Below, one piece after another: positions 22,473 to 56,600 of a stretch of DNA of 64,000 bases. The position numbers and the translations under genes are program-made. The notes under the pieces were generated by a model that worked only from the letters and a program-made list of their open reading frames with translations, was not told where the DNA came from and made no database searches. The number at the start of each line of letters is the position of its first letter. Position 1 is the first letter of the stretch. This stretch comes from Stenotrophomonas maltophilia (lineage in GTDB: Bacteria; Pseudomonadota; Gammaproteobacteria; Xanthomonadales; Xanthomonadaceae): the NCBI RefSeq assembly GCF_006970445.1, contig NZ_CP033877.1, positions 3,108,750 through 3,172,749 on the forward strand, given 5' to 3'.

Positions 22473-23153
22473 TCAGGCACATCCTTCAATCAGTTCAATC
22501 GCATCACTGGTTCCCCAGTACATCCGGGTGACCTTCCCTTCAAACAGTTCCAGGCGGATGCCCAGGTCCGAACCCGGGTCCTGCCAAGTGAGGTACTCGC
22601 CCTGGTCACCGTCGTAGGCATGCGGGCTGGATACCGGCGGCTTCGGAAACTGGGCCATGGCCTGGGCGCGGGTCATGCCGACACGCAGGCCGAACGGACC
22701 GGGCTGTTCAACCGGCAGCTCAGGGTCGTCGCCCGGCTTCAGATCGAAACGGACCACGCGGTCGTCGTCGGTCATCATCGACACGCCTGGCGGCAGCCCC
22801 CTGCCGTCGTAGTACTCGCAGTCGCCTTCGAAGAACTCTTTCGCGCCCTGCGCCTTCCAGGGGCCCAGTGACTTCAGGTCACCCATATGCTGGCCAACCA
22901 GCACGTCACCGGCGTGGTCCAGCGCCACCGACGCCACCGCCGGCGCGTCATCGCTGTTCGTGCCCTCTTCGGAGGGCGGATCGACAATCGGCGCACGCGC
23001 CATCGGGTCGAGGTCATCGTTGGCGGCCGCCTGCTGTGCCGGCTGCGTGGTGGCCTTGGCAGCCGGTGCCAGCACCGGCGGCTCCGGCGGCTGGCACGCG
23101 GCCAACCCCAGCGCCAGCAGCAGCACGCCACTGTTGCGCAACAGCGCGCTCAC
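22473..23153 (-). CDS. Uncharacterised lipoprotein embedded between trpB and trpA
   Basis: Predicted lipoprotein of 226 residues. The GTG start at 23153 overlaps the trpB TGA as GTGA, and the gene ends 1 bp before the trpA start, so it is co-translated with both. A signal peptide ([16 protein letters not shown]) and a lipobox LAAC with Cys20 are clear. A disordered Pro/Ala/Asp-rich linker (about 25-80) follows. The remaining 140 residues form a compact acidic domain with motifs [18 protein letters not shown] and [15 protein letters not shown]; the latter resembles the short repeat of SmpA/BamE-like proteins. No known function is recognised. A role in tryptophan synthesis is unlikely for an envelope lipoprotein, so its position may only reflect expression level. 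Confidence 0.85.
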
Positions 23154-24367
23154 AGCACCAGCCCTTCGCGCGCGGCAATGGTATGCACGTCCTTGTCGCC
23201 ACGGCCGGACAGGTTGCACAGCACGATCTGGTCACGCGGACGCTCACGCGCCAGCTTGATCGCCTGCGCCAGTGCGTGGCTGGACTCCAGTGCCGGCAGG
23301 ATGCCCTCGGTATGCGCCAGCAGGTGGAAGGCCTGCAGCGCTTCTTCATCGGTGATGCCGAGGTAGCGCGCACGGCCGGTATCGGCCAGGAATGCATGCT
23401 CCGGACCGACGCCCGGATAGTCCAGGCCGGCCGACACCGAATGGGTCTCGATGATCTGGCCGTCGTCGTCGCACAGTACATAGGTGCGGTTGCCATGCAG
23501 CACGCCCGGGCGACCGGCAGCGATCGATGCGGCGTGGCGCCCGGTGCTGATGCCGTCACCGGCGGCTTCAGCGCCGACGATCTCGACCTGGCGGTCGTTG
23601 AGGAAGGCATGGAACAGGCCGATGGCGTTGCTGCCGCCGCCCACGCAGGCGGTGATCGCATCGGGCAGGCGGCCATACTCGGCCAGCATCTGCTCGCGTG
23701 CTTCGCGGCCGACGATGGCGTTGAAGTCGCGCACCATGCGCGGATAGGGATCCGGGCCGGCGACCGTACCGATGATGTAGAAGGTGTCCTGCACATTGGT
23801 CACCCAATCGCGCATCGCTTCGTTGAGCGCGTCCTTCAGGGTGGCCGAGCCGGAGGTGACCGGCACCACCGTCGCGCCGAGCAGCTTCATGCGGTAGACG
23901 TTGATCTTCTGCCGCTCGATGTCGGTGGCGCCCATGTACACCACGCATTCCAGGCCCAACCGCGCGGCAACCGTGGCACTGGCCACGCCGTGCTGGCCGG
24001 CACCGGTCTCGGCGATGATGCGCTTCTTGCCCATCCGCGCCGCCAGCAGCGCCTGGCCGATGGTGTTGTTGATCTTGTGCGCGCCGGTGTGGTTCAGGTC
24101 TTCGCGCTTGAGCAGGATCTGCGCACCGCCGACATGGTCGCTCAGCCGCTGGGCGTGGTAGATCGGGCTCGGCCGGCCCACGTAATGGGCCAGGTCGCGG
24201 TCGTAGGCGGCCTGGAATGCCGGGTCCTGGCGGGCCTGGTCATAGGCCTGGGCCAGTTCCTGCAGCGGGCCGACCAGGGTTTCGGCAACGAAGCTGCCGC
24301 CGTAGCGGCCGAAATGGCCCTGGGCATCCGGGAAGGCGTGGTAGTCGGCAATGGGGGAGGCAGACAT
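23150..24367 (-). CDS. trpB: Tryptophan synthase beta chain
   Basis: PLP enzyme that condenses indole and serine to tryptophan. It has 405 residues, the normal length. The PLP lysine is Lys98 (HTGAHKINN). The Gly-rich phosphate cup is GGGSNAIG. The catalytic Glu lies in AETGAGQHG. The C-terminal SGRGDKD is intact. The ATG at 24367 has only a weak ribosome site. It is first in trpB-lipoprotein-trpA, divergent from a LysR gene, as with TrpI-controlled trpBA in pseudomonads. Confidence 0.98.
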
Positions 24368-24464: not shown

Positions 24465-25352
24465 ATGAGCCGTTCCCTGCTGCCCCCCCTCAATGCGCTG
24501 CGCGCGTTCGAGGCCACCGCCCGTCTCGGCGGAGTTGGCCGCGCCGCACAGGACCTGCATGTCACCCACGGCGCGGTCAGCCGGCAGTTGAAGCTGCTGG
24601 AAGACCATCTCGGCCTGGCGCTGTTCCAGCGTGCCGGTCGCGGCCTGCGCCTGACCGCTGCGGGCACGCGCCTGCAGGCAGCGTGCAGCGAGGCCTTCAG
24701 CGGCATCGAAGACTGCGTGCGCGAACTGCGGCGGCCGGCGGCGGCCCCGGCGCTGGTACTGGGCTGCAGCGGCAGCGTGCTGGCGCGCTGGATGATCCCG
24801 CGCCTGCCTGCGCTGCAGGCCGCCCTGCCCGGTGTGCGCCTGCAGTGGTCGGCGCTGGATGGCAGCTTCACCGAGGCGCAGTCAGCGCTGGATGCGGTCC
24901 TGCTGCTGGCGCAGGGGCCGTGGCCCCGAGGCTGGCAGGTGCGTGAGCTGGCACCGGAACGGGTCGGCGTGGTGGTGGCACCCTCGCATCCGGCCGCGCA
25001 GCGACTGCGGCATGTACCACCCTCGGCGCTGCTGCAGGAGACGCTGCTGCACACCAGCTCACGGCCACAGGCGTGGCCGGCGTGGGCGCAGGCGCATGAT
25101 CTGGACACCTCGAAGCTGCAGCTGGGCACCGCCTTCGAGCATCTGTACTACCTTCTGGAGGCGGCCGTGGCCGGGCTGGGTCCGGCGATCGCGCCCGAGC
25201 CGCTGGTGGCCGAGGACCTGGCCGCGGGCCGGTTGGTCGCACCCTGGGGATTTGCTGCCACCGGTGGCTTCTGGGTGCTGGCGCGACCGGATGGTCTGGC
25301 CGATGCGCGCGTGGATGCGCTGGCCGACTGGCTGGGCCAGCAACTCCGTTGA
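24465..25352 (+). CDS. LysR-family regulator, probable TrpI-type activator of trpBA
   Basis: 295-residue LysR regulator. The N-terminal winged helix-turn-helix spans about 6-66 (LNALRAFEATARLGGVGRAA, then HVTHGAVSRQLKLLEDHLG), followed by a linker and an effector domain (about 90-290). The opening PPLNALRAFEAxAR and the position divergent from trpB are those of TrpI/GcvA-group activators. The ribosome site AGGA is 8 nt ahead of the ATG at 24465. The gene ends 8 bp before a long palindrome that should terminate it. The symbol trpI is not assigned because binding specificity cannot be read from sequence. Confidence 0.85.
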   Translation: MSRSLLPPLNALRAFEATARLGGVGRAAQDLHVTHGAVSRQLKLLEDHLGLALFQRAGRGLRLTAAGTRLQAACSEAFSGIEDCVRELRRPAAAPALVLGCSGSVLARWMIPRLPALQAALPGVRLQWSALDGSFTEAQSALDAVLLLAQGPWPRGWQVRELAPERVGVVVAPSHPAAQRLRHVPPSALLQETLLHTSSRPQAWPAWAQAHDLDTSKLQLGTAFEHLYYLLEAAVAGLGPAIAPEPLVAEDLAAGRLVAPWGFAATGGFWVLARPDGLADARVDALADWLGQQLR

Positions 25353-25359
25353 CAACGAG

Positions 25360-25422
25360 AAAGGGGACGGAGGGAATCAAGTCGTATGTGGCGTATACGA
25401 CTTAATCCCCTCCGTCCCCTTT
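25360..25422. repeat. Long palindrome, diverged copy (28-bp arms), acting as bidirectional terminator
   Basis: Arms at 25360-25387 and 25395-25422 pair at 26 of 28 positions around a 7-nt loop. The core GGGGACGGAGGG...AAGTCG is the same as in the perfect copy at 45444-45509. The GC-rich stem is flanked by A and T runs on both sides, the form of a bidirectional rho-independent terminator. It lies between the convergent LysR and TelA genes and marks one edge of the flotillin cassette. It is unrelated to the SMAG hairpins. Confidence 0.85.
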
Positions 25423-25431
25423 TTCTTTATT

Positions 25432-26541
25432 TCAGGGTGCGGTGGGGGCGGCCAGCCGCTGCTGCAGGTCTTCGCGCAGGCGCGACAGTTCCACTTCCGC
25501 CTGCTGCCGCTGCTGCATGCCTTCGCGATGGATGCTGCGCACTTCCTCGACCGTGGCGATCAGCTGGTCGTGCACATGGCGCAGGGTGGCCACGTCGATC
25601 ACCCCACGCTGGTTGCTGCGGGCGGTATCCACCGAAGCCTGGCGCAGCAGGTCGGCATTGCGGCGCATCAGCTCGTTGGTGGCATCATCGATGGCCGTGG
25701 ACAGTTCGACCGCCGCCTTCTGTTCGCCCAGCGAGAGCTGGATGGCGAACTGGCGCTTCCACGACGGAATGGTGATGTCGCGGACGGTGTTGAACTTCTC
25801 GATCAGCTGCAGCGCGTTGGCCTGGATCAGGCGGATCATCGGCAGCGACTGGTCGGCGGCGTGCTGCATCAGCTGCAGGTCGGACACGCGCTTTTCGATC
25901 AACCGGATCGCGTTGTCGATCTCGCCCTGGCGGATGCGCTGCTGCGGATCCTCACTGCCCTGCCCGGCCAGCTGTTCGGCCTGCAGTTCGCCCAGCCGCT
26001 GCTTGCCCGCAGCCGCATACAGGCCGAGCGCATGGCGTTCTTCGCGGACGATGTCGTGCATGCGGTCGAATTCGCCCACGCGCTTGGCCATCAGGGCCTG
26101 CTGCACACCGACGTCGCCCAGCAACTGCTCGATCTGCGCGTTGGTGTCGCTGAACTTCTGCACCAGCTCGCCCTTGGATACGCGCAGGCGGTCGATCAAG
26201 CCACCGATCACAGGCACCTTCGATCGCTGTGCGAAGCCGTCCAGCTTCAGGCTGCGTGCGATGCGCACGACTTCGCCCAGCTTCTCGCCACTGGCATCGA
26301 GGTCGCGATTGCGCACCTGGTCCAGCAACTGGCTGGAAAACGCTGCGGTGCGCGTGGCCGCTTCGCGACCGAAGACCTGCAGGTTGCCCGGGCGCAGATC
26401 TTCCAGCTCCAGACGGATCTCGGCGATGCGCGGCAGATCCTCGCGGACCAGTCCCAGCGCCTGCAGTGCGCCTTCATCGAGCGCAGCGGCGATGGTCGTG
26501 CCGGGCACGAGGGCACCGGGGGTCTGGCTGTCCTGGGTCAT
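25432..26541 (-). CDS. TelA-family (toxic anion resistance) protein
   Basis: 369-residue mostly helical protein of the TelA/KlaA family (PF05816), whose members are linked to tellurite, colicin and cell-envelope stress resistance without a defined biochemistry. The start is the ATG at 26541, with AAGGAG 8 nt upstream. Family segments seen include VPVIGGLIDRLRVSKGEL, with its long coiled-coil continuation, and ITIPSWKRQFAIQLSLGEQ, near residues 240-300. No membrane helix or signal peptide, so cytoplasmic. It closes the five-gene cassette, 44 bp after an unknown gene, and ends at the palindrome at 25360-25422. Confidence 0.9.
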   Translation of the reverse strand: MTQDSQTPGALVPGTTIAAALDEGALQALGLVREDLPRIAEIRLELEDLRPGNLQVFGREAATRTAAFSSQLLDQVRNRDLDASGEKLGEVVRIARSLKLDGFAQRSKVPVIGGLIDRLRVSKGELVQKFSDTNAQIEQLLGDVGVQQALMAKRVGEFDRMHDIVREERHALGLYAAAGKQRLGELQAEQLAGQGSEDPQQRIRQGEIDNAIRLIEKRVSDLQLMQHAADQSLPMIRLIQANALQLIEKFNTVRDITIPSWKRQFAIQLSLGEQKAAVELSTAIDDATNELMRRNADLLRQASVDTARSNQRGVIDVATLRHVHDQLIATVEEVRSIHREGMQQRQQAEVELSRLREDLQQRLAAPTAP

Positions 26542-26585
26542 CGGGCAGTCTCCTTGCAGTTGGGTAAGCGGCAGCGGCGGCCGGC

Positions 26586-27293
26586 TCAAGGCAGTCTAGC
26601 CTGAGCCGCGGCCACCTCGTCATCGATCTGTGCATGCAACGTGGCGACCTTGCCGGCCAGCGCAGCGCCCGCAGCGGCCTGGCCTGCCAGTGCAGCCTGC
26701 CGCCAGGCCGGCAGCAGGACGTCATGGATGCGCGCGAAGCGATGCAGCAGCATGCTGTCCTGGTCCTGCAGCAGCTGCCATTGGCCGGCTTCCAGACGGC
26801 GCAGCGAGGCCAGCCGGCGAAGATGGTCCAGCCGTTGCGACAGCGCGGCCTGGCCGGCGATATCCAGCGGTGGCAGCGGCGACGCCGCCAGCTCGGCCCA
26901 GGCCTCCAGTGCCGTGGCTGCCTCTGAATGCTCGATGATGGCCCTGGCCCGCAGCTGCATGTGCTGCTGCAGGTGCTGGGCCTGCTCGCGCGCCTGCAGG
27001 GCCAGCACGCCCAGCTGCGACTGCAGCGCCCGCCCTTCTGCCTCGCGAGCGACATCGCGCCCCAGCAATCGGCCCCACCAACTTTCCTGCTGCCGGATCT
27101 GCGCCGGGTTGGCGGCCTGCAGGGCCAGCGCGATGCGTGCCAGCGCGGAGACCAGGCCCTCGCCCGCACCCGGCGGCACGGTTGTTTCGCGCCGTGCCAG
27201 CGCCTCCAGCAACGGCGCACCATAGTCGGCCAGCACGGCGACATCGACCGTGTCCGGCAACCTCGGTGACGGCAGTGGCGCCTGCGTGGTCAC
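26586..27293 (-). CDS. Uncharacterised helical protein of the flotillin/AAA/TelA cassette
   Basis: 235 residues, not recognised. It is almost entirely alpha-helical in appearance, very rich in Ala, Leu, Gln and Arg, with heptad-like stretches (about 95-125 and 160-200) suggesting coiled coils. No signal peptide, membrane helix or catalytic motif. One short conserved-looking segment, QESWWGRLLGRDV, lies at about 69-81; a WWGRLLG element of this kind is common near the start of TelA-partner proteins, but I cannot name the family. The GTG start overlaps the TGA of the ATPase gene (GTGA), implying translational coupling and probably a shared complex. Confidence 0.75.
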   Translation of the reverse strand: MTTQAPLPSPRLPDTVDVAVLADYGAPLLEALARRETTVPPGAGEGLVSALARIALALQAANPAQIRQQESWWGRLLGRDVAREAEGRALQSQLGVLALQAREQAQHLQQHMQLRARAIIEHSEAATALEAWAELAASPLPPLDIAGQAALSQRLDHLRRLASLRRLEAGQWQLLQDQDSMLLHRFARIHDVLLPAWRQAALAGQAAAGAALAGKVATLHAQIDDEVAAAQARLP

Positions 27294-30200
27294 GGCAGCG
27301 GCGGCGGCTTCGGCGTGGATGACGGAGTGGCATCACCGTCTTCCGGCGGCAGTGACTCGCCGTAGAAGTGGCGCATCAGGGCCTCATCCAGTGCCCGCTC
27401 CTCCGGCGTCGCGGCACGGCGCACGCGCGCACGCTGCGCCACCACGGCACCCGGTGCGCCACGCTCGACCTGCTGCCGCGCCCAGCCGGCGAACGCGGCC
27501 AGGGTCTGCGACACCTGTACCTGCTGCGCCTGCGACGCCGCCAGCAGTTCCACCAGCGGCGCCAGGCCCGCCTGCAGGTCGTCGGCCAGGACCGTGGCCG
27601 GCACGCTGGGGGCTGCCGCGGCCGGCACCGGCACCGGCGCGGCGGCGGGACGTGTTTCGGAAAGGCGATGCAAGGCCTCCAGCAACGCCGGCCACGGCGC
27701 CGGGTCCGCAACGGCGATCGCTTCCGGTGCCGGCGGTGGCAGCTGCAGGGCGGTGGCGATATCGGCCAACTGCGCAACCACGCGCCCGCCGACATCGCCG
27801 TCGTCGGCACCCATGGCCTTGTTGCGCAGGAAGTCGCGCTTGATCTGTGCCCAGCGCTGAGCCTGCGTGTCATCCAGTACGCCGCGCAGTTCGGCCAGCT
27901 TCAACAGGTTCTCTTCGGCGCCGGTGGTCAGCAGCTGTGCCTCGCCCAGGTAGTGGTCGGAGATCAGCTGCTGCAGCTCGTCCTCGTTCATCACCGGCGA
28001 GATCTTCTCGGCCAGCTTGTTCATGTTGCGGTAGCTGCCCTGCAGGCGGAACGGCGGCTCGGTGCGGTAGCGGTCGTCCTGTGCGGCACTGGCGATGTAC
28101 TGCTGATTGACCCGGTAGACCACGTCGCGCACGCGCAGCATGCGCTGCAGGGTGGCGGTGATCTCGTTGATCTCCGCGCTGCTGTAGGCGTGGCTGAGCC
28201 CGTTGGTCGAGACCTCCTTGCCCATCGCGCGGTCGACCAGCACGTACAGGTCAGCCATGTCGCGCGTGGCCAGCGGCGCCAGCACCGGATTGGAGGTCAG
28301 GCTGTTCTCGATGTAGCTGAGGGTGAAGGCTGCCTCCATGCCACCGAGCACATCACCGAGGTTGTAGATGTCAGCACGGTTGGCCAGCATGTCCGGGATC
28401 TTGAACACCTCGCCGGACTCGGTATACGGGTTGCCGGCCATCACCACGCAGAACTTCTTGCCGCGCATGTCGTACGTACGGGTGCGACCGCGCCACACGC
28501 CCTCGATACGACGGGTGCCATCGCACAGCGAGATGAACTTCTGCAGGAACTCGGGATGGGTGTGCTGGATGTCATCCACATACAGCATGGTGTTGTTGCC
28601 CATCTCCAGCGCCAGATTGAGCTTCTCCAGCTCCTGCCGCGAGGTCGCGTCCGGTGCCTGGGCCGGGTCCAGCGAGCGCACCTCATGCCCCAGCGCCGGG
28701 CCGTTGATCTTCATGAAGACCAGGCCCAGGCGGTGCGCCACGTATTCCATCAACGTGGTCTTGCCGTAGCCCGGGGGCGAAATCATCATCAGCAGGCCCA
28801 TCAGGTCGCTGCGCTTGTTCTCGCCGACCGTGCCCATCTGCTTGGCCAGGTTGTCACCGATCACGCCCAGGTAGACATCGTTGATCAGCTTGTTGCGCAC
28901 GAACGAGGACAGCGGCCGCGCCTTGAACTCGGAAAGCCGCAGGGTCTCGCGCTCGCGCCCGATGATGCCCTGGCGCAGCGCCTGGTAGGCATGGAACGCC
29001 GGCACGAAATGGCGCAGGTGCTGCTTCAGGCGTGCCAGGAAGTCATCCAGCGACACCACCAGCGTGCCATTGCTGATGCGCGCGTGCTCGCCCAGCAGGC
29101 CGCCGACCTCCGACTGCAATGCGGCGTCGCTGGCGCGGCTGCGCAGCTGCCGCTGCACCAGCAGCAACGCCGCGGCTTCATCGACATAACCGGCATGCGT
29201 GGCATGCGCCGGCATCCGCGCCAGCGCACGCAGCCACTGCCCGGCCAGCGCCCAGCGCGCGGCCAGCGGGTCCTGGCTACGCTGCAGCGCGCGTTCGACC
29301 GCCTCGCGCTGCCCGGCCTGTTCCAGCTGCTGCGCCAGTGCCTCCAGCAACGCCACCGCGTGGCGGCTGCTGCTGAACACCGGATCGCCCGCCGCCAGTT
29401 CTTCGCCCAGATAGGCGGCCGCGGCCTCCGCGGCATCGGCATCGAACGGCAACGCGTGGGACTGCGCATACGCCAGCAGCGCCTCGGCCATTTCCGCACG
29501 CAATGCCAGGCGCCCTTCGTCGGACCCCAGCAGGCGTGCCAGCGCCTCGGCGCCCACCTGCCGCGCCGACCATTGCGCCACCGCCTCGCGGCGCTGCTCC
29601 CCTGCCCAGAACAGCAGCGCCAGCGCACGCACCCGTGGTGCATGGCGCAGGCTGCCCGCGGCCTGCTGCAAGGGCAGCAACGCACGCAGGATCAGCGCGG
29701 CATCATGGTCATGGATGCCACGCTCGTAGCCTTCGCGGTAGCGCGGCGCGGCGAACGCACGCACGCGCTGGTCCAGCGCATCGGGATTGGCAACGTCCTG
29801 CTGCAGCATGGCCAGATCGAGGCCGTCGCGTCCCTCCTGCGCAGCCATCAGCAGGCTGCCGGCCAGGTACTCGCCGCGATACAGCGTGGGAGATTCGGAG
29901 TCCAGCGTGACCGGCCAGAACGGCTTCAGCGCATCCAGCTCCGGATCGTGCAGGGTCTCCAGGAAGTCGGTGCCGGTCAGATGGATGGCCAGCGTATCGC
30001 CACGCGGCAACAGGGTCAGGTCCAGTGCCTGGGTGTTGACGCTGAAGCGATGGCGCGGCCCCAGCCGCACCACGTTGCCGCCGGCTTCGTACAGGTCACT
30101 GCGGTCGCGCAGCTGGCGCACCGCCTGGTCACGCACGCCCTTCAGCCGCGCCTCGATGTCGTCGGCCTTGACGTTGTCGTGCAGCGTGCGCAGGCGCTCG

Positions 30201-32683
30201 GCCAGCTCACGCAGCTTGAGGATCAGCGGATCGCCGGCGAAGAAGGCGTTGAGTTCATCGGCGGTGGCGAAGCGCTCGGTGCGCTTGGCCAGGCCGTCGA
30301 GGATGCGGTTGGCCGCGTCCAGGACCGAACGCGCCTTGCGCTGGCGGTCATCCAGCAATGCCTGCTTGTGCGTTTCGAAGGCTTCCACCAGCTCTTCGCG
30401 CTTGCTCAGGATGTCGCCGAGGAACTGCTCGTGCTCGCCGAACTGGCTCTCCAGTTCCTCCAGCTGCACCAGCAGGCGCGACAGCTGCTCGTCGGCGCGT
30501 TCGGGATCGGTGGCCAGGGCCAGCGCGCTGGTGATCGACTGCGAGAACAGCGCGAACTGTGCGGCGAACTGCGCCACGGCCTCGGCCGAACCGAGCGACC
30601 TGCGGCGCTGATCAGCGCGCGCACGGGCCTGGTTGAGGCGGCCGTACAGCACCGAAATGGACTCGACCACGCGGGTGCGCGCAGTGGCATCGTCCACCTT
30701 CAGGCCGGCCATCAGCTCGGACAGCATGTCCAGGTCGGCCGCCATCCCGCGCAGCCCCTCCAGCTGCTCATCCAGCAGGCGTGCACTCTGCGCCTGCTGG
30801 GCCGCTTCATCCAACGCCTGCAGGCGCGTGGTCAGCGGCACCAGCGCGGCATCACCGGCGAGGAACTCACCCGTGGCGGCGCCGACATGGTCCTGCGCCT
30901 CCATCAGTTCGGCCGTCATCGTCTCGATGCGCGCGGTGTCGATGTAGCGCAGCTCGCGGATGGTCAGCAGCCGCCCACGCAATGCGGTGATCGCATTGAG
31001 CGCCTCGACGAAGGCCTGCACCTCGTTCCAGTTCTGCGGCTGCAGCCGGCCCAGCAGCGCCTTGTGCGCGGCCTCTGCTTCGACCATCGCCTGCGCCGAC
31101 TGCTGGCGGATCGACTGCACCTTCTCGTATTCGTCCAGCACCGATTCGCCGGTGGCGCTGATCTGCCGCAGCAGGGCCTCGGCGCCATCGCAGGCCTCGT
31201 CGCCCAGCCAGTGGTGTGCATCGAACAGGCGCCGGGTATCGGCCACCAGTCGCTGATAGCGCTGTACCGACACGTCCTGGCCTTCAATCTCGCGCGCCAG
31301 GTTGAACAGGTTGGAGATACCGCGCACCAGCTCGGCGTTGCCGATGCGGCCCATGAAGGTGTTGCCGGGCGGTCGGCTGGCGGCAAACTCGTCACTGCTG
31401 AACGGCGTCTGCCAGACCTGCATCGGATGGATGCGGGTCGGTTCGCTGCCCTCGGCATGGAACAGCACCATGCGCCCGTCCTGCATCAGGGCGTAGCCAT
31501 GGCCGAACACCGGGTTCTGCAGCACGCGCTGGATGGTGTTGTAGACGAACAGTGCCGAGCGCCCACCTTCGCGCTCGTAGAAGATGTACAGCACATCCTC
31601 GCCGTTCGGCGAACGGATGCTGCGCTTGAACTGCATGCCGGCCATCGAGGCGTCGAACGCCTTGTGCTCGCCGCCCTGCAGGTAATAGCCGCCCGGGAAG
31701 ATCACGCCGTGGTCTTCGGGCAGCTGCACGCAGGCCTGTACGATCGCATCGTTGCGCACGATGGCGCCGGTCAGCGTGTTGTAGATCAGGCCACGCCACT
31801 CCGTCTCGCGGTACGGCAGCACCTTCAGCAGCACCAGCGAACCGACCCGGGCGAATTCGAACTGGGCGTCGTCCAGCGACTGCGTGCTGTCCTCGACCGG
31901 CTCGCTGTAGATGCCCTGCCCGGTCTCGGTATTGTTCTCGACCTTGATGGTGAGGTCGCCGCCGGTGGTCTCCACGAACAAGGTATCGAGGATGTTCAGG
32001 TGTGAATGGCGGCCATTGACCGCCAGGTCGCGGGTCGCCTTGGTCCATTCGAAGTCGAACGGCGGCGGCAGGGCAATATCGCGCTCACCGCGCGCATCCA
32101 GGTAGGTCAGTTCGCCATCGCGCGACAGCGCCCAGCGGAACACGCGCACGTCGCTGCTGCGCTCGCCGATCTGGAACGAGGCCAGCAGCTTGTCACCCAC
32201 CACGATCAGCTGCAGCAGGCGTGCGTGCTTGTAGTAGGCGTACAGCTCATTGAAGTCGTGCACGAAGCCGGGCTGGTCGAGGAAGCTGCCCTTCAGCTCG
32301 AGCGCGGCCACGTCGTAGCCGTCGTTGCCCTGCACCAGCCGGTACAGGCCGAACACGTCCTCGATGCGGGTCTGGGTTTTCAGCCCGATGAACACGTTGT
32401 AGCCGAACAGCAGGCGGTGCGGCCCGACCTGCACGATGTCACGGCCGACGCAGTTGTTCTCGCTGCGGATGCGGAAACGCCCGGCCACTTCCAGGCGGCT
32501 GTCGCCGAACTCGGCCAGGCGCTGGCGGTTGAGCGTCTCGGCCAGGCCCTGCAGGCGCTGGCCCTGCTCGGCCAGGCGGCGGCGCAGGACTTCGTAGGCG
32601 CCGCCCTGGGCAACGGCCTGGTCGACGGTATTGCCGCCGGCCTCCGGTGCGGTGGATTCGGCGGACGGATGGGTATCAGACAT
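27290..32683 (-). CDS. Giant AAA ATPase with DUF3686-type N-terminal region
   Basis: 1797-residue cytoplasmic protein. The first 430 residues match my memory of the 'ATPase involved in DNA repair' domain (DUF3686; RIRSENNCVGRD, NVFIGLKTQTRIEDVF). A long helical and coiled-coil middle follows (about 440-900), then an Ala-rich helical part. The AAA+ module has Walker A PPGYGKTT (Lys1308), Walker B MLYVDDIQ (Asp1370-Asp1371) and a sensor-like VVMAGNPYTES. The C-terminal 150 residues are Ala/Pro-rich and disordered. The 'DNA repair' name is historical; with a flotillin and TelA alongside, a role in membrane or envelope stress is more likely. Ribosome site GGAAG is 9 nt before the ATG at 32683. 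No frameshift is seen. Confidence 0.88.
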   Translation of the reverse strand: MSDTHPSAESTAPEAGGNTVDQAVAQGGAYEVLRRRLAEQGQRLQGLAETLNRQRLAEFGDSRLEVAGRFRIRSENNCVGRDIVQVGPHRLLFGYNVFIGLKTQTRIEDVFGLYRLVQGNDGYDVAALELKGSFLDQPGFVHDFNELYAYYKHARLLQLIVVGDKLLASFQIGERSSDVRVFRWALSRDGELTYLDARGERDIALPPPFDFEWTKATRDLAVNGRHSHLNILDTLFVETTGGDLTIKVENNTETGQGIYSEPVEDSTQSLDDAQFEFARVGSLVLLKVLPYRETEWRGLIYNTLTGAIVRNDAIVQACVQLPEDHGVIFPGGYYLQGGEHKAFDASMAGMQFKRSIRSPNGEDVLYIFYEREGGRSALFVYNTIQRVLQNPVFGHGYALMQDGRMVLFHAEGSEPTRIHPMQVWQTPFSSDEFAASRPPGNTFMGRIGNAELVRGISNLFNLAREIEGQDVSVQRYQRLVADTRRLFDAHHWLGDEACDGAEALLRQISATGESVLDEYEKVQSIRQQSAQAMVEAEAAHKALLGRLQPQNWNEVQAFVEALNAITALRGRLLTIRELRYIDTARIETMTAELMEAQDHVGAATGEFLAGDAALVPLTTRLQALDEAAQQAQSARLLDEQLEGLRGMAADLDMLSELMAGLKVDDATARTRVVESISVLYGRLNQARARADQRRRSLGSAEAVAQFAAQFALFSQSITSALALATDPERADEQLSRLLVQLEELESQFGEHEQFLGDILSKREELVEAFETHKQALLDDRQRKARSVLDAANRILDGLAKRTERFATADELNAFFAGDPLILKLRELAERLRTLHDNVKADDIEARLKGVRDQAVRQLRDRSDLYEAGGNVVRLGPRHRFSVNTQALDLTLLPRGDTLAIHLTGTDFLETLHDPELDALKPFWPVTLDSESPTLYRGEYLAGSLLMAAQEGRDGLDLAMLQQDVANPDALDQRVRAFAAPRYREGYERGIHDHDAALILRALLPLQQAAGSLRHAPRVRALALLFWAGEQRREAVAQWSARQVGAEALARLLGSDEGRLALRAEMAEALLAYAQSHALPFDADAAEAAAAYLGEELAAGDPVFSSSRHAVALLEALAQQLEQAGQREAVERALQRSQDPLAARWALAGQWLRALARMPAHATHAGYVDEAAALLLVQRQLRSRASDAALQSEVGGLLGEHARISNGTLVVSLDDFLARLKQHLRHFVPAFHAYQALRQGIIGRERETLRLSEFKARPLSSFVRNKLINDVYLGVIGDNLAKQMGTVGENKRSDLMGLLMMISPPGYGKTTLMEYVAHRLGLVFMKINGPALGHEVRSLDPAQAPDATSRQELEKLNLALEMGNNTMLYVDDIQHTHPEFLQKFISLCDGTRRIEGVWRGRTRTYDMRGKKFCVVMAGNPYTESGEVFKIPDMLANRADIYNLGDVLGGMEAAFTLSYIENSLTSNPVLAPLATRDMADLYVLVDRAMGKEVSTNGLSHAYSSAEINEITATLQRMLRVRDVVYRVNQQYIASAAQDDRYRTEPPFRLQGSYRNMNKLAEKISPVMNEDELQQLISDHYLGEAQLLTTGAEENLLKLAELRGVLDDTQAQRWAQIKRDFLRNKAMGADDGDVGGRVVAQLADIATALQLPPPAPEAIAVADPAPWPALLEALHRLSETRPAAAPVPVPAAAAPSVPATVLADDLQAGLAPLVELLAASQAQQVQVSQTLAAFAGWARQQVERGAPGAVVAQRARVRRAATPEERALDEALMRHFYGESLPPEDGDATPSSTPKPPPLP

Positions 32684-32710
32684 CAGCAGGCTTCCGGCTC
32701 ACGGGCGGAC

Positions 32711-32762
32711 GGCCGCGGTTGCGGCCGGCGCGGGCGGGCGATGGCCGCAGCAGCCATCGCCC
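32711..32762 (-). other. Tandem intercistronic stem-loops between flotillin and ATPase genes
   Basis: Two hairpins lie in the 85-bp gap. One is GGCCGC-GGTT-GCGGCC at 32711-32726. The other has perfect 10-bp arms GGGCGATGGC/GCCATCGCCC at 32736-32762 with a 7-nt loop, only 6 bp after the flotillin stop. No T-run follows, so partial attenuation or mRNA 3'-end protection is likelier than full termination. Confidence 0.6.
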
Positions 32763-32768
32763 GATGCA

Positions 32769-34787
32769 TCAACGGGCGCTGTCGACCACGGTGGCCGACA
32801 CGGTCGGCACCGCTTCGGCATCCTCGGCGATCTGGCGCGGTGCCGGTTCGGCCACGGCCACGCCCAGGTAGCGCTGCATCAGCTCCTGCACGATCGGGCT
32901 CTTGCCGGCAAAGCCTTCGATCGACTTGCCCAGCGACACCGCCTTGACCAGGTTCTCGAACATGCCGCCGTCGCCACCGACCAGGTCGATGTCGGCGTTG
33001 CGCAGCGCGCTGGCGATGACATTGGCGTTCTCGCGCGAGACTTCCTTGCCGGCTTCGATCGAGGCAAGCGCCTGCTTCAGGCTGTTGTCCAGCATCATGC
33101 GGAACTCTTCGTGGCCACGTGCCTGGTCGCTCAGCGAGGCGATGGCTTCGAACTTGCGCACCAGGCCCTCGGCCTCGGCCAGCAGCTTCTTCTGCACCAC
33201 GCCGGCTTCGGCGTTGCCCAGCGACTCGGTGGCGGTGGCACGGGCCAGGCCCATCTTCTCCTCACCCTGCGCCTGCGCCTGCAGGGTCTCGGCCAGCACG
33301 CGGGCTTCGTTGCTGCCCTGCTTCAGGCTGGCTTCGGCCTTGGCTTCGATCACGCGCGCTTCGGCGATGCCAACCTTCTCGATGGCCAGCGCCGAGGCTT
33401 CACGCACCTGCGCCTCGGCCAGGCCAGGAGCGGCCTGTTCGGCACGGTAGGCGTCGGCCAGCAGGCGCTTGGCTTCGGCCTGCTTGCCGGCCGCTTCGTG
33501 CTCGGCCTGGGCCAGCGTGGTCAGTTCCACCGCACGATGCTTGGAGGCGGTTTCGCGCGCCTGCGCTTCCTTCACTTCGCGCACCAGCGATTCCTGCGCC
33601 TTGGCTTCGGCTTCCAGGATCAGCACCTGCTTCTGGCGGTCGGCCTCGGAGACCTCGCGCACTTCCTTGATGCGCTCTTCTTCCTGCGCCACGGTCTTGT
33701 CGATGGAGATGCGTTCGCGGGTGATGTTGGCCACGTCCATCTTGCCCTGCTCGACCACCTTGTCGCGCTCCACGCCCTGCAGCTGCACTTCACGGTCAGT
33801 GGTGACCTGCTCCAGCTGGCGTGCGCGCTCCACGCGCTCGGCTTCGATGGCCACGGCACGCTGGCGGTTCTGCTCGGCCACTTCCACTTCGCGCAGGCGG
33901 TTCTGGTCGCGGATCTCGATCAGCTGCTGCGCTTCGATGCGGGCATTCTCGGACAGCTGGCGCTGTTCTTCCTGCACCTTGGCGGTCTCGGCCTCCTCGC
34001 GCGCGCGGATGGTCTCGATCTCGCGCTTCTGGCGTGCTTCGGCTTCGGCCTGCTGGCGTTCCAGCGCCAGCAGCGCTTCACGCGCTTCCACGTTCTTCTT
34101 GGTGATGGCGAGCTTCTCGTTCTGCTCCAGCTCGTTGGTCACCACGTTCTGCGCGGCGGTCAGCTCGGTGATCTTGCGGATGCCCTGGGCGTCGAGGATG
34201 TTGAACTGGTCCAGCAGCGACTTTGGGGTCTGCTCCAGGTAATCGATCGCCACGTCTTCCAGCACATAACCGTTGAGATCGTTGCCGATCACCGCGATGA
34301 TCTCGTCGCGGAATTCCTGGCGCTTCTCGAACAGTTCGGTGAAGTCGAACTTCTTGCCGACCGTCTTCAGCGCTTCGGAGAACTTGGCGTTGAACAGCTC
34401 ATCGACGGCATGCTTGTCCGATGCACGGTCGGCACCGATGGCCTTGGCCACGCGCAGCACGTCGGCCTGGGTCTCGTTCACCCGCAGGTAGAAGGCCACG
34501 GCGATGTCGGCACGCATGTTGTCGCGGCAGATCAGGCCTTCCTTGCCGCGGCGGTCGATCTGCAGGGTGATCAGGCTGATCCGCATCAGCTCGGCGCGGT
34601 ACAGCACCGGGATGATCAGCGCACCGGTGAAGTGCACCTTGGGCGTGGAGCTCATGTCGTTGACGATCAGGGCCACGCCCTGGTCGACCTTGCGGTAGAA
34701 GGCCTTGAACAGGCCGGCCACGCCCAGCAGCAGGACGAGCAGGCCGCCGGCGACGGCCAGGATCGGTAAGAGGGACGCCAACGTCAT
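32769..34787 (-). CDS. Flotillin / SPFH-domain membrane protein (YqiK-like)
   Basis: 672-residue flotillin. One N-terminal membrane helix (about 5-28, LLPILAVAGGLLVLLLGVAGL) is followed by the SPFH/band-7 domain (about 30-210, including RDNMRADIAVAFYLRV). A very long Ala/Glu-rich coiled coil follows (about 215-560, with AEAEARQKREIETIRAREEA), then a short tail. Flotillins scaffold ordered membrane microdomains by homo-oligomerisation. The ATG at 34787 overlaps the stop of the small NfeD-like gene (ATGA), the yqiJ-yqiK arrangement of E. coli, in which the partner anchors the flotillin. Confidence 0.93.
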   Translation of the reverse strand: MTLASLLPILAVAGGLLVLLLGVAGLFKAFYRKVDQGVALIVNDMSSTPKVHFTGALIIPVLYRAELMRISLITLQIDRRGKEGLICRDNMRADIAVAFYLRVNETQADVLRVAKAIGADRASDKHAVDELFNAKFSEALKTVGKKFDFTELFEKRQEFRDEIIAVIGNDLNGYVLEDVAIDYLEQTPKSLLDQFNILDAQGIRKITELTAAQNVVTNELEQNEKLAITKKNVEAREALLALERQQAEAEARQKREIETIRAREEAETAKVQEEQRQLSENARIEAQQLIEIRDQNRLREVEVAEQNRQRAVAIEAERVERARQLEQVTTDREVQLQGVERDKVVEQGKMDVANITRERISIDKTVAQEEERIKEVREVSEADRQKQVLILEAEAKAQESLVREVKEAQARETASKHRAVELTTLAQAEHEAAGKQAEAKRLLADAYRAEQAAPGLAEAQVREASALAIEKVGIAEARVIEAKAEASLKQGSNEARVLAETLQAQAQGEEKMGLARATATESLGNAEAGVVQKKLLAEAEGLVRKFEAIASLSDQARGHEEFRMMLDNSLKQALASIEAGKEVSRENANVIASALRNADIDLVGGDGGMFENLVKAVSLGKSIEGFAGKSPIVQELMQRYLGVAVAEPAPRQIAEDAEAVPTVSATVVDSAR

Positions 34788-35458
34788 TGATGATTCTCCT
34801 TGTTGCCCGGAAGCAGGTTGTCCTGGAAATCGAGGGCGATCGCATCAGCGCGGACCACCCGGTAATAGTGTTGCTCTGCCATGTGCTCGACCAGCACGAT
34901 GCGCTCGCCACGCTGCAGTTCGATGTCGCTGCGGATCTGCAGCACCAGCCCGGCGCCGCCATCATCGACAGTGGCATGACCACTGCGTGCGTCCACCTTC
35001 GGCGATGCGACCACGCCGATCCGGCCCAGCAGCGATGCCTGCGGCACCGGACGCAGGCGCAGCAGGAAGCGCCGGACCGGGCGCAGGATCAGCGCGGTGA
35101 TGGGTACCGCAGGCAGCGGTGCCAGTACCGCCACGAGCGTACCCAGGCCCCAGCGCAGCAGGTCCGGCAGCGGCAGCAGTACGAACAGATGGATGAAATA
35201 GGTGATGAGCCAGCCGAACAGGCCCAGCAGGGTGACCACCACCATGATCGGGACGCCGCCCAGGCCCCAGCGCGCCAGCATGGCCGACAGGCCACTGAGG
35301 TCGGTCCCCGCCTCGAGCGCGCCATCGGCGCCGAGATCGCCGAAACCGTCATCGACCAGGCCGAACGCGGCAACCGCCCAATACATCACCGACACCATCA
35401 GCAGAATGCTGTACGGCAGCGTCGGGTAACCGAGTACGACGGTGAGAAACTCCTGCAT
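34784..35458 (-). CDS. YqiJ/NfeD-like membrane protein with OB-fold tail
   Basis: 224-residue partner of the flotillin. The start is the ATG at 35458 (ribosome site GGAAGG 6 nt ahead); the longer open frame upstream has no membrane signature. Three hydrophobic helices are at about 10-35, 65-95 and 97-125. A C-terminal domain of about 65 residues (LLGRIGVVASPKVDARSG to YRVVRADA) has the small beta-barrel pattern of NfeD/YqiJ soluble domains. Such proteins assist or localise flotillins. It is the first gene of the five-gene cassette. Confidence 0.88.
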   Translation of the reverse strand: MQEFLTVVLGYPTLPYSILLMVSVMYWAVAAFGLVDDGFGDLGADGALEAGTDLSGLSAMLARWGLGGVPIMVVVTLLGLFGWLITYFIHLFVLLPLPDLLRWGLGTLVAVLAPLPAVPITALILRPVRRFLLRLRPVPQASLLGRIGVVASPKVDARSGHATVDDGGAGLVLQIRSDIELQRGERIVLVEHMAEQHYYRVVRADAIALDFQDNLLPGNKENHQ

Positions 35459-35626
35459 CGCTTGCCTTCCTGGGCTATGGGCGGCGGCCGCCCGTTCGGG
35501 GCGCGCCGAGCGCGTCCCGTCGATCCCCGCGCCAGCTCTCATGGCAGGCGCGCTTGGGACCATCCTATGTGAAGAATGCGTGCAGGCTCAAATCGGGGTG
35601 CTGATCAGAGTAAATAGTGACGCGAA
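35459..35626. promoter_or_regulatory. Region between trpF and the flotillin cassette
   Basis: 168 bp holding the presumed promoter of the five-gene cassette. On the minus strand TTGAGC and ATAGGA with a 17-bp spacer (around 35570-35600) are a weak sigma-70 candidate about 110 bp before the first start codon. No clear sigma-E or sigma-54 site is seen by eye. trpF transcription has no evident T-run terminator before this gap. Confidence 0.3.
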
Positions 35627-36283
35627 TCACTCGAGAACCGTGCAATCGGCGCGGCGCACTTCCTCGACGAAGGTACGCATCTTGTAGCCGTCCTTGATGC
35701 CCGGCTCCAGTTCGATGCCGCTGGAGACATCCACGCCCCACGGCAGGGTGGCCAGCACCGCGTCGTAGACGTTTTCCGGGTTCAGGCCACCGGCCAGCAG
35801 GAACGGGCGATGCAGGCCGGTCGGGATCCGGCCCCAGTCGAAGGCCACGCCGGTGCCGCCACCGCCGCCCGGCGCATGGCTGTCGAACAGGAAGCCAGCG
35901 GCGCTGGGATAGCGCAGCTGCAGGGTGCGGGCGTTGATCTCTTCACGCCCGCCCATCGCGATCGCCTTCAGGTACGGCATGTTGAAGCTGCGGCAGAAGC
36001 TCTCGTCTTCCTCGCCGTGGAACTGCAGCAGGGTCGGTCGCACCGTGCGCAGCACCTCGCGCACCTCTTCCTTGCTGTTGTTGCGGAACAGCGCCACCAC
36101 GTCGACCATGGGTGCGATCGCCTGGCGCATCGCGCGTGCCTCGGCCGGGGCGACCCGGCGGCTGCTTTCACGGGCGAAGATGAAACCCACCGCGTCCACA
36201 CCCAGTTCACCGGCCAGGCGGACGTCGCCGGCCCGGGTCATGCCACAGAACTTGATGCGCGTGCGGTAGTAGGAGCGGCTCAT
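35627..36283 (-). CDS. trpF: Phosphoribosylanthranilate isomerase
   Basis: Third step of tryptophan synthesis from anthranilate. It has 218 residues from the ATG at 36283. The TIM-barrel motifs are [10 protein letters not shown] with the general base Cys13, [23 protein letters not shown], and the acid loop GVDVSSGIE near the end. The ATG overlaps the truA stop (ATGA); upstream codons in frame lie in truA. truA-trpF pairs are common in proteobacteria. Here trpB and trpA are 11 kb further on, beyond the flotillin cassette. Confidence 0.96.
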
Positions 36284-53697: not shown

Positions 53698-56600
53698 TCA
53701 CCACACGCCCATGCGCACACGCAGGCGTCCGGCTTCGTCATAGACCCGCCAGTTGCCATCGCTGTACTCGGTGCGGCGCCCGCCACCGGGCGCACTGACA
53801 CTGAACGCATCGGCCACCACATCGAAACGCGAGACCTGGCCACTGGACGCCAGCTGCACGCCGCCTACCCGGCCGTCGGCACGAACGTTCACCGACCATT
53901 GCGCGGAAGACTCGGTGCCTCCGGCCGACCAGGTGGGGGGGGCGGTTGCCGACGCATCCACCTGGCTCAGCATTGGGCGGAACATCCAGAAGTACGGCGT
54001 GTCTCCACCGGTACCGATCACGATCACGCGGAAGCGAGCGAAGGACGCTGTGGTGGGCGCTTTGGTGATCAGGAACGTCCGCGTCAAGCGGTCGAGCGTG
54101 ATCGGCGTTCCGGTATCGCTCCTCACGCCAGGGCTGTGCACCAGCCCCAGATGGTTGCCGGCCGCATCGAAGAACGTCATCTCCAGCTTGGCTTCCACGC
54201 GATGAGTGTTGATCCAGGCGGACGCGCAATAGGTCTTGCCGCCCTCGATGGCGATGTCGTACTCGGTTCCCCACCACGCCATTTCGCCTGCCGCGACGAC
54301 GCCGGGTGTCACCGCGCCCAGTCCGAATATCCCCTTCGGATGCCAGCTGTCATTGCCGGTGGGGTTGCCCAGCTCGGACCAGCGGGCGTTCGGGTTGCTT
54401 CCCCACCCCCACCCCGAGCGCTGCCAGAAGGGGAACGTGGTGTTCATCAGCAGGTTGCCGCCGGCGCCGAGATTCTTGACCTGCGCCTGCATGCTGGTCA
54501 CCACGGCAGCGTCCGCCTTGCCGCCCAGTGAGGCCTGCACGCCGTCGACCCGACCAGACAGTGCGGTCAGCTGCGTACCCTGCTGGCTGACCTGGCTCTT
54601 CAGCTGCGAGAAACCGCTGGCCGAGACGTCGCCCACCTGGGTCTTGAGCTGGGTCAGGTCACGCGCCGTGGTGTCCAGCTTGCTGCCCTGCTGGCCTACC
54701 GAGGTGCTCAGCCCACTGATGGCCGAGGCATTGGCATCGTTGGCCACCTGGTCGGTGATGTCGTAGACCTGGACGCTGTCCACCCGCACCTGGCCGTTGT
54801 CGGGGTGAGCATAGATGTTCAAACGCCAGGCATCGATGCCGCTGTTGAAGGCATCGAAGTCGAACGATCGGGTCTCGAACGCCTCTACTGCGAACACCGC
54901 ACGCAGATCCTGGTAGGACTGCTGGCCGGCCGCATTCTTGCGATAGATCCGCACCAGCAGATTGTTGGCACCGCCAGCACCGCAGGCGCGGACGATCACC
55001 CGCAGGCGGCGCGCGCCGTTGATCGGCACCCATTTGCCACCGTTGGCCTGCAGGGTCGGATTCACGTTCGTGTAGCGGTTGAGCAGCACACCTGGGCGTC
55101 CATCACCGTTGACCGTGCTCCACACCGCGCCATTGGCCGCCGCCGATGCCGTCCAGCCACCCAGCCCTTCGGCGAAGTCGGGATTGGGCAGCAGGCCGCT
55201 GCCGGTGTTGAGTACGCCCTTCAGCCCACTCGACAGATCGGTGATCTGCTGTGCCTGCGCATCGACCTTCGTCCCCTGCTGATCGACCTTGGTGGTCAGC
55301 GCGGTCACTGCAGTGGCCGTGGCGGCGGCGCTCTGCTGCGCGGCGTAGGCGTCGGTGACATCGATCATGCGGATGTCGTCCACCTGCACGCGCACGCCCA
55401 CTTCGCGCGCACCGCTTCCTCCCGGGATGCTGACCAGCATCCGCCACTTCGCCGCAGACGCGGCGGTATTCATGTAGCCGCTGACCTTGGTCCAGCCATC
55501 CTTGCGCAGGGAGGCCAGTGCGTAAGCCTGCAAGGGCCACGAATTCTCCGCGTTGGCTTCGTTCGTGGTCTGCCAGCCCACCCGGATCGAGCCACCGGTC
55601 GGCTGGATGCTGTCCGGATGCAGGCGCGCGTAGTACTCCACATAGATGCGGCGATTGCCGGTGATGGGGGTCCACTGCCCGAAGTACATGTCCGCATTGG
55701 TGTTCGGGCTGGTGTTGGCCGCGACATTCACATCCAGGCCGCGCTCGCCGGTCCGGCGTGCATCGGCGCGGGCGGTGTAGATCGTGCCCGCCGCACTACC
55801 CAGCAGCTGGCCGTCCTGGAACGTTTCGAACGCACCCAGCGGGAACAGGCTGTCGCTGCCATTGAGGACCGATTGCACGTCCGACTGCAGCTTGACCACA
55901 CTGGACGCACTACTGGTGACACGATCGCCAAGCTGCACCACGTCGCTGCGCAGGTTGGCGATGGCCGTCGCGTTGCCGGCGATGTCCTGCGCATCGGTGA
56001 TGTCATAGAGCTCGACCCGGTCGAACAGCACCTTGCCGCCCGCGTTGGTCAGATGCACCTGCGGCATGATCTCGTTGCGATCCTGCGCGGCAGACCATTC
56101 GGCCGTGTAGGTTTTCCAGGCTGCATCGGACAGGTTCAGCGTCACGTCGGCATGGCTTTCGCCCCCTCCGCTGGTCCGCACGCGCAGCCGGCAGACCAGG
56201 GTGGCCGTCGCATTGTCGAAGGCGCGGGCGATCATCACCAGGCGGTACCGCCGCGACCTGCCGGCAACCACCGGCAACCACCGCGCATCATTGGCCGTGA
56301 TGAAGGGGTTCTGTCCGGCCTGGGGACCATGCGTCATCAACAGTGCGTCACCACTCTGGCCCGATGCCTTCACCCACTCCACGGTGTTGGCCGACACGGT
56401 GCGGGTCAACGTCCACCAGGCGGCACTGCCAGCGAAGGAGCTGTTGCGCAGCACGTTGTCGCTGCTGGTCACCGAGGTCTCCACCCGCGCGGCCAGGCTG
56501 GTCAGGCTGTCGGCCGCGGACACCAGGTCGGTACCGAGCTTGCTGACGTCGGTGCGCAGCCCGGTCAACGCTTCCGCATTGCTCCGCGCCGTACGATCGA

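Follow-up and report, generated by a model that had tools for sequence, protein, structure and literature searches.

Tellurite, bacteriocins and cell-wall drugs have all been linked to proteins of the TelA family, whose mechanism is unsettled. In Stenotrophomonas maltophilia, a gene of this family closes a five-gene cassette that also encodes a YqiJ/NfeD-like membrane protein, an SPFH/flotillin-type protein, a giant AAA+ ATPase with a DUF3686 region and a 235-residue helical protein, here called P235. The cassette occupies positions 25432-35458 (minus strand) of a 64,000-nucleotide stretch of contig NZ_CP033877.1 (assembly GCF_006970445.1), hereafter the window. The closest described systems are the operons reported in silico by Ravi et al. 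2024 (PMC11237479), which have a flotillin-YqiJ-AAA+ core, often beside a DUF2170-PspA pair, and for whose PspA-linked form assembly of a membrane complex has been proposed. The same study names abbreviated operons with only the YqiJ, flotillin and AAA+ genes, which may rely on PspA encoded elsewhere. In Pseudomonas aeruginosa, bacABCDEF form one operon according to reverse transcription PCR, starting with DUF2170 and PspA-like genes (PMC10948618, PMC2587700), after which come genes for an NfeD homologue and an SPFH protein (PMC13086221); mutants of bacA and bacB (pa3731) are affected in biofilm and rhamnolipid (PMC10948618, PMC2587700). Escherichia coli yqiJ-yqiK have been described as an SPFH2-NfeD2 pair (PMC2636767).

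Like the operons of Ravi et al., which combine CesT/Tir(DUF2170)-PspA, band-7/flotillin, YqiJ/YuaF and beta-propeller AAA+ components, the cassette has YqiJ-type, flotillin-type and giant AAA+ genes; unlike them, it is devoid of PspA and DUF2170, and has TelA and P235 added downstream. We infer that the beta-propeller of Ravi et al. corresponds to DUF3686. The giant ATPase and the adjacent flotillin gene fit the abbreviated YqiJ-flotillin-AAA+ class, with the YqiJ component recognized tentatively, through a sub-threshold match of an orthologue. PspA and DUF2170, the features of the bac/PspA-linked class, are both missing from the cassette operon, which is therefore likened to that class and not assigned to it. 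The NfeD-type and flotillin genes are shared with the P. aeruginosa bac operon, whose gene order is that of cassette relatives and which differs from the cassette in having bacA, bacB and a proposed sigma-54 promoter. Judging from gene order in other Pseudomonas loci, bacE would encode a DUF3686-type ATPase and bacF would be a PLD-type gene; the DUF2170 protein of one surveyed locus (L059) scores 225 bits with the NCBIfam BacA model, below its 300-bit cut-off. The NfeD-type and flotillin pair is likewise common to the cassette and E. coli yqiJ-yqiK, whereas no DUF3686 was found in 14 control genomes including E. coli. The last cassette gene is a clear TelA, as in the TelA/YaaN toxic-anion-resistance proteins (PF05816), for which no flotillin-AAA+ partner was encountered in the literature searched. 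That search, from which most subscription papers fell outside, found no publication naming DUF3686, none combining flotillin, TelA and an AAA ATPase, and none with the phrase toxic anion resistance protein together with Stenotrophomonas; the strings TelA, tellur-, toxic anion, Xantho- and Stenotroph- have 0 occurrences in the main text of Ravi et al. The flotillin-YqiJ-ATPase core is already known, if little studied, and its PspA-linked form has also been described, so the earlier note on this DNA went too far in putting the locus forward as its best candidate for an undescribed system; the TelA-bearing, PspA-less Stenotrophomonas version is new.

Within the genus, TelA and the ATPase occur together almost without exception. 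Among 91 genomes, DUF3686 was detected in 56 and TelA above the cut-off in 55, all within those 56, that is, in 55/56 ATPase-positive vs 0/35 ATPase-negative genomes (Fisher p 2e-24, ignoring phylogeny). The sole ATPase-positive genome without TelA, G423, has a completeness of 83% and is split into about 350 contigs. In a family sample of 198 genomes, the 18 with TelA above the cut-off all fall within the 44 with DUF3686 (14 adjacent, 4 elsewhere), and one genome without DUF3686 (G669) yields a TelA match below the cut-off. Because all genomes with TelA above the cut-off in both samples carry DUF3686, TelA tracks the ATPase, and the TelA-ATPase link drawn in the earlier note holds within the genus. 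In the genome of the window, the cassette gene is the only TelA match. At the phylum level, DUF3686 was found in 8 of 398 genomes.

Gene neighborhoods were surveyed at 120 loci, namely a first set of 40 and a second set made up of the best 80 of at least 574, with at least two contigs counted twice, by scanning up to 8 kb around the ATPase with profiles built from the cassette family. Flotillin is encoded upstream of the ATPase on the same strand at 113 of the 120 loci and at 113/113 with upstream sequence; at the seven loci lacking a flotillin match (L122, L143, L165, L169, L170, L186, L189) the ATPase match starts less than 500 bases from a contig end. The flotillin-ATPase gap has a median of 74 bases and reaches 3.3 kb, measured between open frames. 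The profiles detected YqiJ at 101 loci, DUF2170 at 59, PspA at 56, TelA at 30, PLD-type genes at 28 and P235 at 21, and tblastn found YqiJ, flotillin and ATPase together at all 40 first-set loci. The proposal of one conserved module with a firm ATPase-flotillin link is thus borne out. Rarity of co-occurrence elsewhere, which had been set as the refuting test, splits the module: the ATPase accompanies flotillin everywhere sampled, while TelA is confined to one branch. In the first set, TelA lies 3' of the ATPase at 24/40 loci (tblastn), as does P235 (22 by tblastn, and L060 and L062 by reading alignments). In the second set, TelA occurs at 6/80 loci: two from Stenotrophomonas and one each from Xanthomonas chitinilytica, Luteimonas deserti, Lysobacter xinjiangensis and a metagenome-assembled genome of Pseudomonadota. 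At 12 loci without TelA, the nearby downstream gene is not TelA by Pfam. Both TelA and P235 were added in a lineage-specific way and are found almost only in Lysobacteraceae.

The membrane-protecting protein PspA (PF04012) was found in none of the 91 genus genomes, including that of the window, while 9 of the 14 control genomes were positive; PspA detectable by Pfam is absent throughout the sampled genus. The suggestion of Ravi et al. that PspA is supplied from elsewhere fails for Stenotrophomonas, as no PspA is found at Pfam sensitivity. DUF2170 was found neither in the genome of the window, the only genome searched for it, nor at 15 genus loci. Across the 30 TelA-positive loci, DUF2170 and PspA are both missing at 20 and both present, with the core, at nine (eight first-set loci and Lysobacter xinjiangensis), and L145 is too short to judge. 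DUF2170 without a PspA match is seen at 4 of 59 loci (L051, L119, L120, L121).

P235 is probably a miniature, fast-evolving paralogue of TelA, as profile comparison and structure models suggest. About the last 75 residues of P235 align with the TelA core in hhalign (E 7.5e-5 to 1e-3, probability 62% to 21%, depending on the alignment), against E 0.17 to 0.65 for controls (reversed TelA, PspA, flotillin and the ATPase coiled coil) and a best E of 0.095 for 60 column-shuffled TelA profiles. Of 34 P235 homologues scanned, 9 match Pfam TelA (E up to 1), which makes it the most often matched family, ahead of Glyoxalase_6 with 7. The best homologue reaches E 4.1e-6 and 26.5 bits, below the gathering score of PF05816; for this reason P235 is called TelA-like and not TelA. 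The window P235 (P0002) has no Pfam TelA match, its best hit being a sub-threshold one to DUF697 (E 2.7e-4). The AlphaFold2 model of P235 is confident (predicted local distance difference test score, pLDDT, 90.0), with several short helices followed by helices of 44, 62 and 23 residues; in the TelA model (pLDDT 69.8) the short helices precede helices of 80, 113 and 48 residues, so that the helix order is common to both and shortened in P235. The two proteins also share a stretch, DVLLPAWRQ in P235 and DITIPSWKRQ in TelA. Over 16 loci, P235 is the fastest-evolving cassette gene, with a mean pairwise identity of 48.5%, compared with 62.3 for YqiJ, 79.5 for the ATPase, 80.6 for TelA and 89.7 for flotillin. 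A second P235-like gene was seen at L062:3081-3908 (+), upstream of DUF2170, and one P235 homologue (P0226) is labelled S. rhizophila.

Features of the cassette and its flanks (positions in the window)
Feature	Coordinates	Strand	Basis or remark
trpB	23150..24367	-	Pfam PALP
LysR-type regulator gene on the downstream side, transcribed divergently from trpB	24465..25352	+	Pfam
Terminator-like palindrome of a dispersed family, between the convergent genes telA and lysR	25363..25419	.	uninterrupted hairpin
TelA family protein, about 369 aa	25432..26541	-	Pfam TelA; open frame begins at TTG 26589
P235, 235-aa helical protein	26586..27293	-	probable miniature TelA paralogue
ATPase, 1797 aa	27290..32683	-	Pfam DUF3686 + DUF7902 + AAA_5
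AAA+ core (AAA_5, dynein-related type)	28409..28792	-	Pfam AAA_5 E 3.7e-7
Walker B-like MLYVDDIQ	28565-28588	-	ATPase AAA+ core
Walker A-like SPPGYGKT	28757-28780	-	ATPase AAA+ core
Sensor-1-like GNPYTESG		-	ATPase AAA+ core
DUF7902 region (PF25472)	30596..30847	-	Pfam E 7.3e-24
DUF3686 region (PF12458)	31211..32554	-	Pfam E 2.6e-194
13-pair hairpin, flotillin/ATPase intergenic	32735..32763	-	z -2.5 for 96-nt stretch
SPFH/flotillin-type protein, 672 aa	32769..34787	-	Band_7 matches of orthologues
YqiJ/NfeD-like membrane protein, 224 aa	34784..35458	-	start ATG 35458; open frame begins at 35563
Promoter-like element TTGAGC-18-TAGGAT ahead of yqiJ	35562..35591	-	alignment, window + 5 Stenotrophomonas loci
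trpF, upstream flank	35627..36283	-	Pfam PRAI

All five cassette genes were confirmed with the expected lengths, and open reading frames and Pfam matches uphold their single direction and their place between trpF and the LysR-trpB unit (truA was also confirmed among the flanking genes). The product of telA scores 237.5 bits with PF05816, against a gathering cut-off of 30. The window flotillin has no Pfam match at E 0.1 and a sub-threshold NCBIfam FloT match (E 0.0018); its identity is based on orthologues, of which 2/5 scanned exceed the Band_7 cut-off (L178, L192) and three have no match (L157, L048, L136). The identity of YqiJ is less secure, as the window protein has no Pfam match at E 0.1 and 1/5 orthologues scanned (L136) matches YqiJ_N at 18.4 bits, below the cut-off of 23. 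In the ATPase the P-loop is intact, and in an alignment of 11 proteins the P-loop and the Walker-B-like and sensor-like motifs are nearly invariant. The overlapping start and stop codons claimed for the whole array exist at yqiJ-flotillin and ATPase-P235, whereas 85 bp separate flotillin from the ATPase, with the tabulated hairpin inside, and telA probably starts 44 bp past the P235 stop at ATG 26541, behind AAGGAGA, which gives the 369 residues of its relatives, rather than at the overlapping TTG. The yqiJ start is backed by AGGAAGG just upstream.

The promoter-like element was aligned at the five of 15 Stenotrophomonas loci at which the script located the yqiJ start, which it did not at the other 10. 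It is a single site in the window, with 0 expected in shuffles; as a generic sigma-70 scan did not pick it up, it is a candidate promoter only. The long palindrome on the trpB side, pointed out earlier, is a real hairpin and one of many genome copies: its half-sites (GGGGACGGAGGGRATYAAGTCG) number 112 in the genome, against 0 matches to the control pattern, which was the reversed one. It resembles a bidirectional terminator of a dispersed kind rather than an insertion mark. Around 55 further genomic positions carry the palindrome. Elsewhere in the window, a 2758-residue open reading frame spans 53698-61974 (-).

Other genes were also seen behind the ATPase. A rhomboid-domain gene, possibly a further lineage-specific add-on, lies directly 3' of the DUF3686 ATPase in Zooshikella (L133:15327-15905), Limnobaculum (L151:14898-15467) and Providencia (L157:14890-15465), and a PLD-type gene at L124:15156-15869 has a weak N-terminal match to Effector-associated domain 1 below the cut-off (E 0.00088).

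At the trp site, trpF and the cassette are neighbors on a single contig in 54/56 ATPase-positive genus genomes; in the remaining two, trpF is on another contig (G423) or was not found (G425). The lysR-trpB side is present at 16/16 loci (the window and 15 others). Cassette-free loci were obtained from 32 of the 35 ATPase-negative genomes, the other three having no trpF match. trpF is followed by lysR in 30/32 of them, in agreement with the earlier view that the cassette sits between genes otherwise adjacent; in the other two (L106, L107) neither lysR nor trpB is nearby. The trpF-lysR spacing is at most about 720 bp in 25, 1.2 kb in one and 2.8-3.0 kb in four. The four long intervals (L087:5147-7741, L088:3431-6079, L090:5245-7854, L091:3438-6104) encode a 618-residue NlpC/P60 and peptidoglycan-binding protein and a neighbor of 229-253 residues, the 229-residue protein lacking a Pfam match; the two resemble a secreted cell-wall effector and its immunity protein and may be such a pair. 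Pieces of the 618-residue protein are present at L086, L092 and L093, the last with a copy of the 229-residue protein as well. The predicted TelA of Stenotrophomonas cyclobalanopsidis (P0360) continues into a C-terminal piece that shares 46% identity with the 229-residue protein across 158 positions.

On a truA-trpF tree of 86/91 genus genomes (G423, G425 and the three without trpF were dropped), cassette presence requires 15 changes vs 26 for shuffled labels, and well-supported branches force at least 11 gains or losses. ATPase distances correlate with flanking-gene distances (r 0.978, 16 loci), and the G+C content of the cassette is 67.5% vs 66.7% for the window. A single early arrival at the trp site followed by repeated loss is the simplest history, and exchange through flanking genes may be an alternative.

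The reading that we favor, tentatively and as somewhat short of an even chance, is that the cassette is an accessory, bac-type module for envelope maintenance, built on the flotillin/AAA+ core, where the TelA pair took the place of PspA-DUF2170 as the ATPase's helical client. Flotillin and the NfeD-type protein would form a membrane platform that anchors the system, and the giant ATPase would spend ATP to remodel a helical protein assembled there. PspA would be this client in many of the proteobacterial relatives, DUF2170 (BacA/CesT-Tir-like) acting as its chaperone or regulator; in Stenotrophomonas, TelA would be the client and P235 its partner or regulator, with envelope stress as the probable trigger. 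Of the membrane-stress or toxin-protection machine suggested in the earlier note, the membrane-stress half is the likely role; nothing in the analysis points to protection against toxins or tellurite, and PADLOC gave a single weak match. Several observations weigh against the replacement. Many core loci, for example actinobacterial and planctomycetal ones, have neither PspA nor TelA, so that a locus need not encode a helical client; the two proteins are not mutually exclusive either, as nine loci keep both. TelA is encoded downstream of the ATPase and PspA upstream of yqiJ, and hhalign finds no profile similarity between them (E 0.58). The absence of PspA holds at Pfam sensitivity only, and its loss is independent of having TelA, because ATPase-negative genus genomes also lack it. 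The fold matches of the TelA model, whose pLDDT is only moderate, are generic helical bundles.

The coexistence of the DUF2170-PspA pair with TelA at nine of 30 loci also speaks for a less probable alternative, namely that the platform carries TelA and P235 as an additional effector for resistance to cationic peptides, bacteriocins or toxic anions, which has a substrate of its own and does not stand in for PspA. Increased susceptibility to nisin and tellurite has been reported for a TelA mutant of Listeria (cited in PMC12791056), and the rapid divergence of P235 relative to TelA points the same way; however, 20 of the 29 judgeable TelA-positive loci, including all 15 genus loci of the first set, are without DUF2170 and PspA, and the lack of PspA in every sampled genus genome favors takeover, at least in the genus. 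If the cassette were a defence module against phages or rival bacteria, kept at a variable site of the chromosome, this would account for the patchy distribution at all three taxonomic levels, the gains or losses forced at one site and the NlpC/P60 gene pair carried there by four cassette-free genomes. Such a role is nevertheless improbable: PADLOC returned only a weak LmuB match (E 0.0043), the divergence of the cassette parallels that of its flanks, its G+C content is that of the host, and what is known of the relative in P. aeruginosa concerns biofilm phenotypes. The database name "DNA repair ATPase" and a weakly RuvB-like AAA core would make the ATPase a repair enzyme merely lying beside membrane genes, which is very hard to reconcile with its linkage to flotillin at all 113 loci with upstream sequence and to PspA at 56/120 loci, the RuvB similarity being limited to about 45 residues around the P-loop.

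If the favored takeover by the TelA pair is taken further, TelA and mini-TelA might be the counterpart of PspA, unrelated to it in sequence: a membrane-associated helical assembly that a flotillin-anchored AAA+ ATPase dismantles in the manner of ESCRT-III and Vps4, a proposal that we regard as rather doubtful. If true, the TelA family would gain an ATPase partner and a mechanism. The presence or absence of TelA together with one ATPase-flotillin operon, in a genus where PspA is undetectable, makes TelA function directly testable, and may reveal how a bacterium lacking the phage-shock protein meets the same need.

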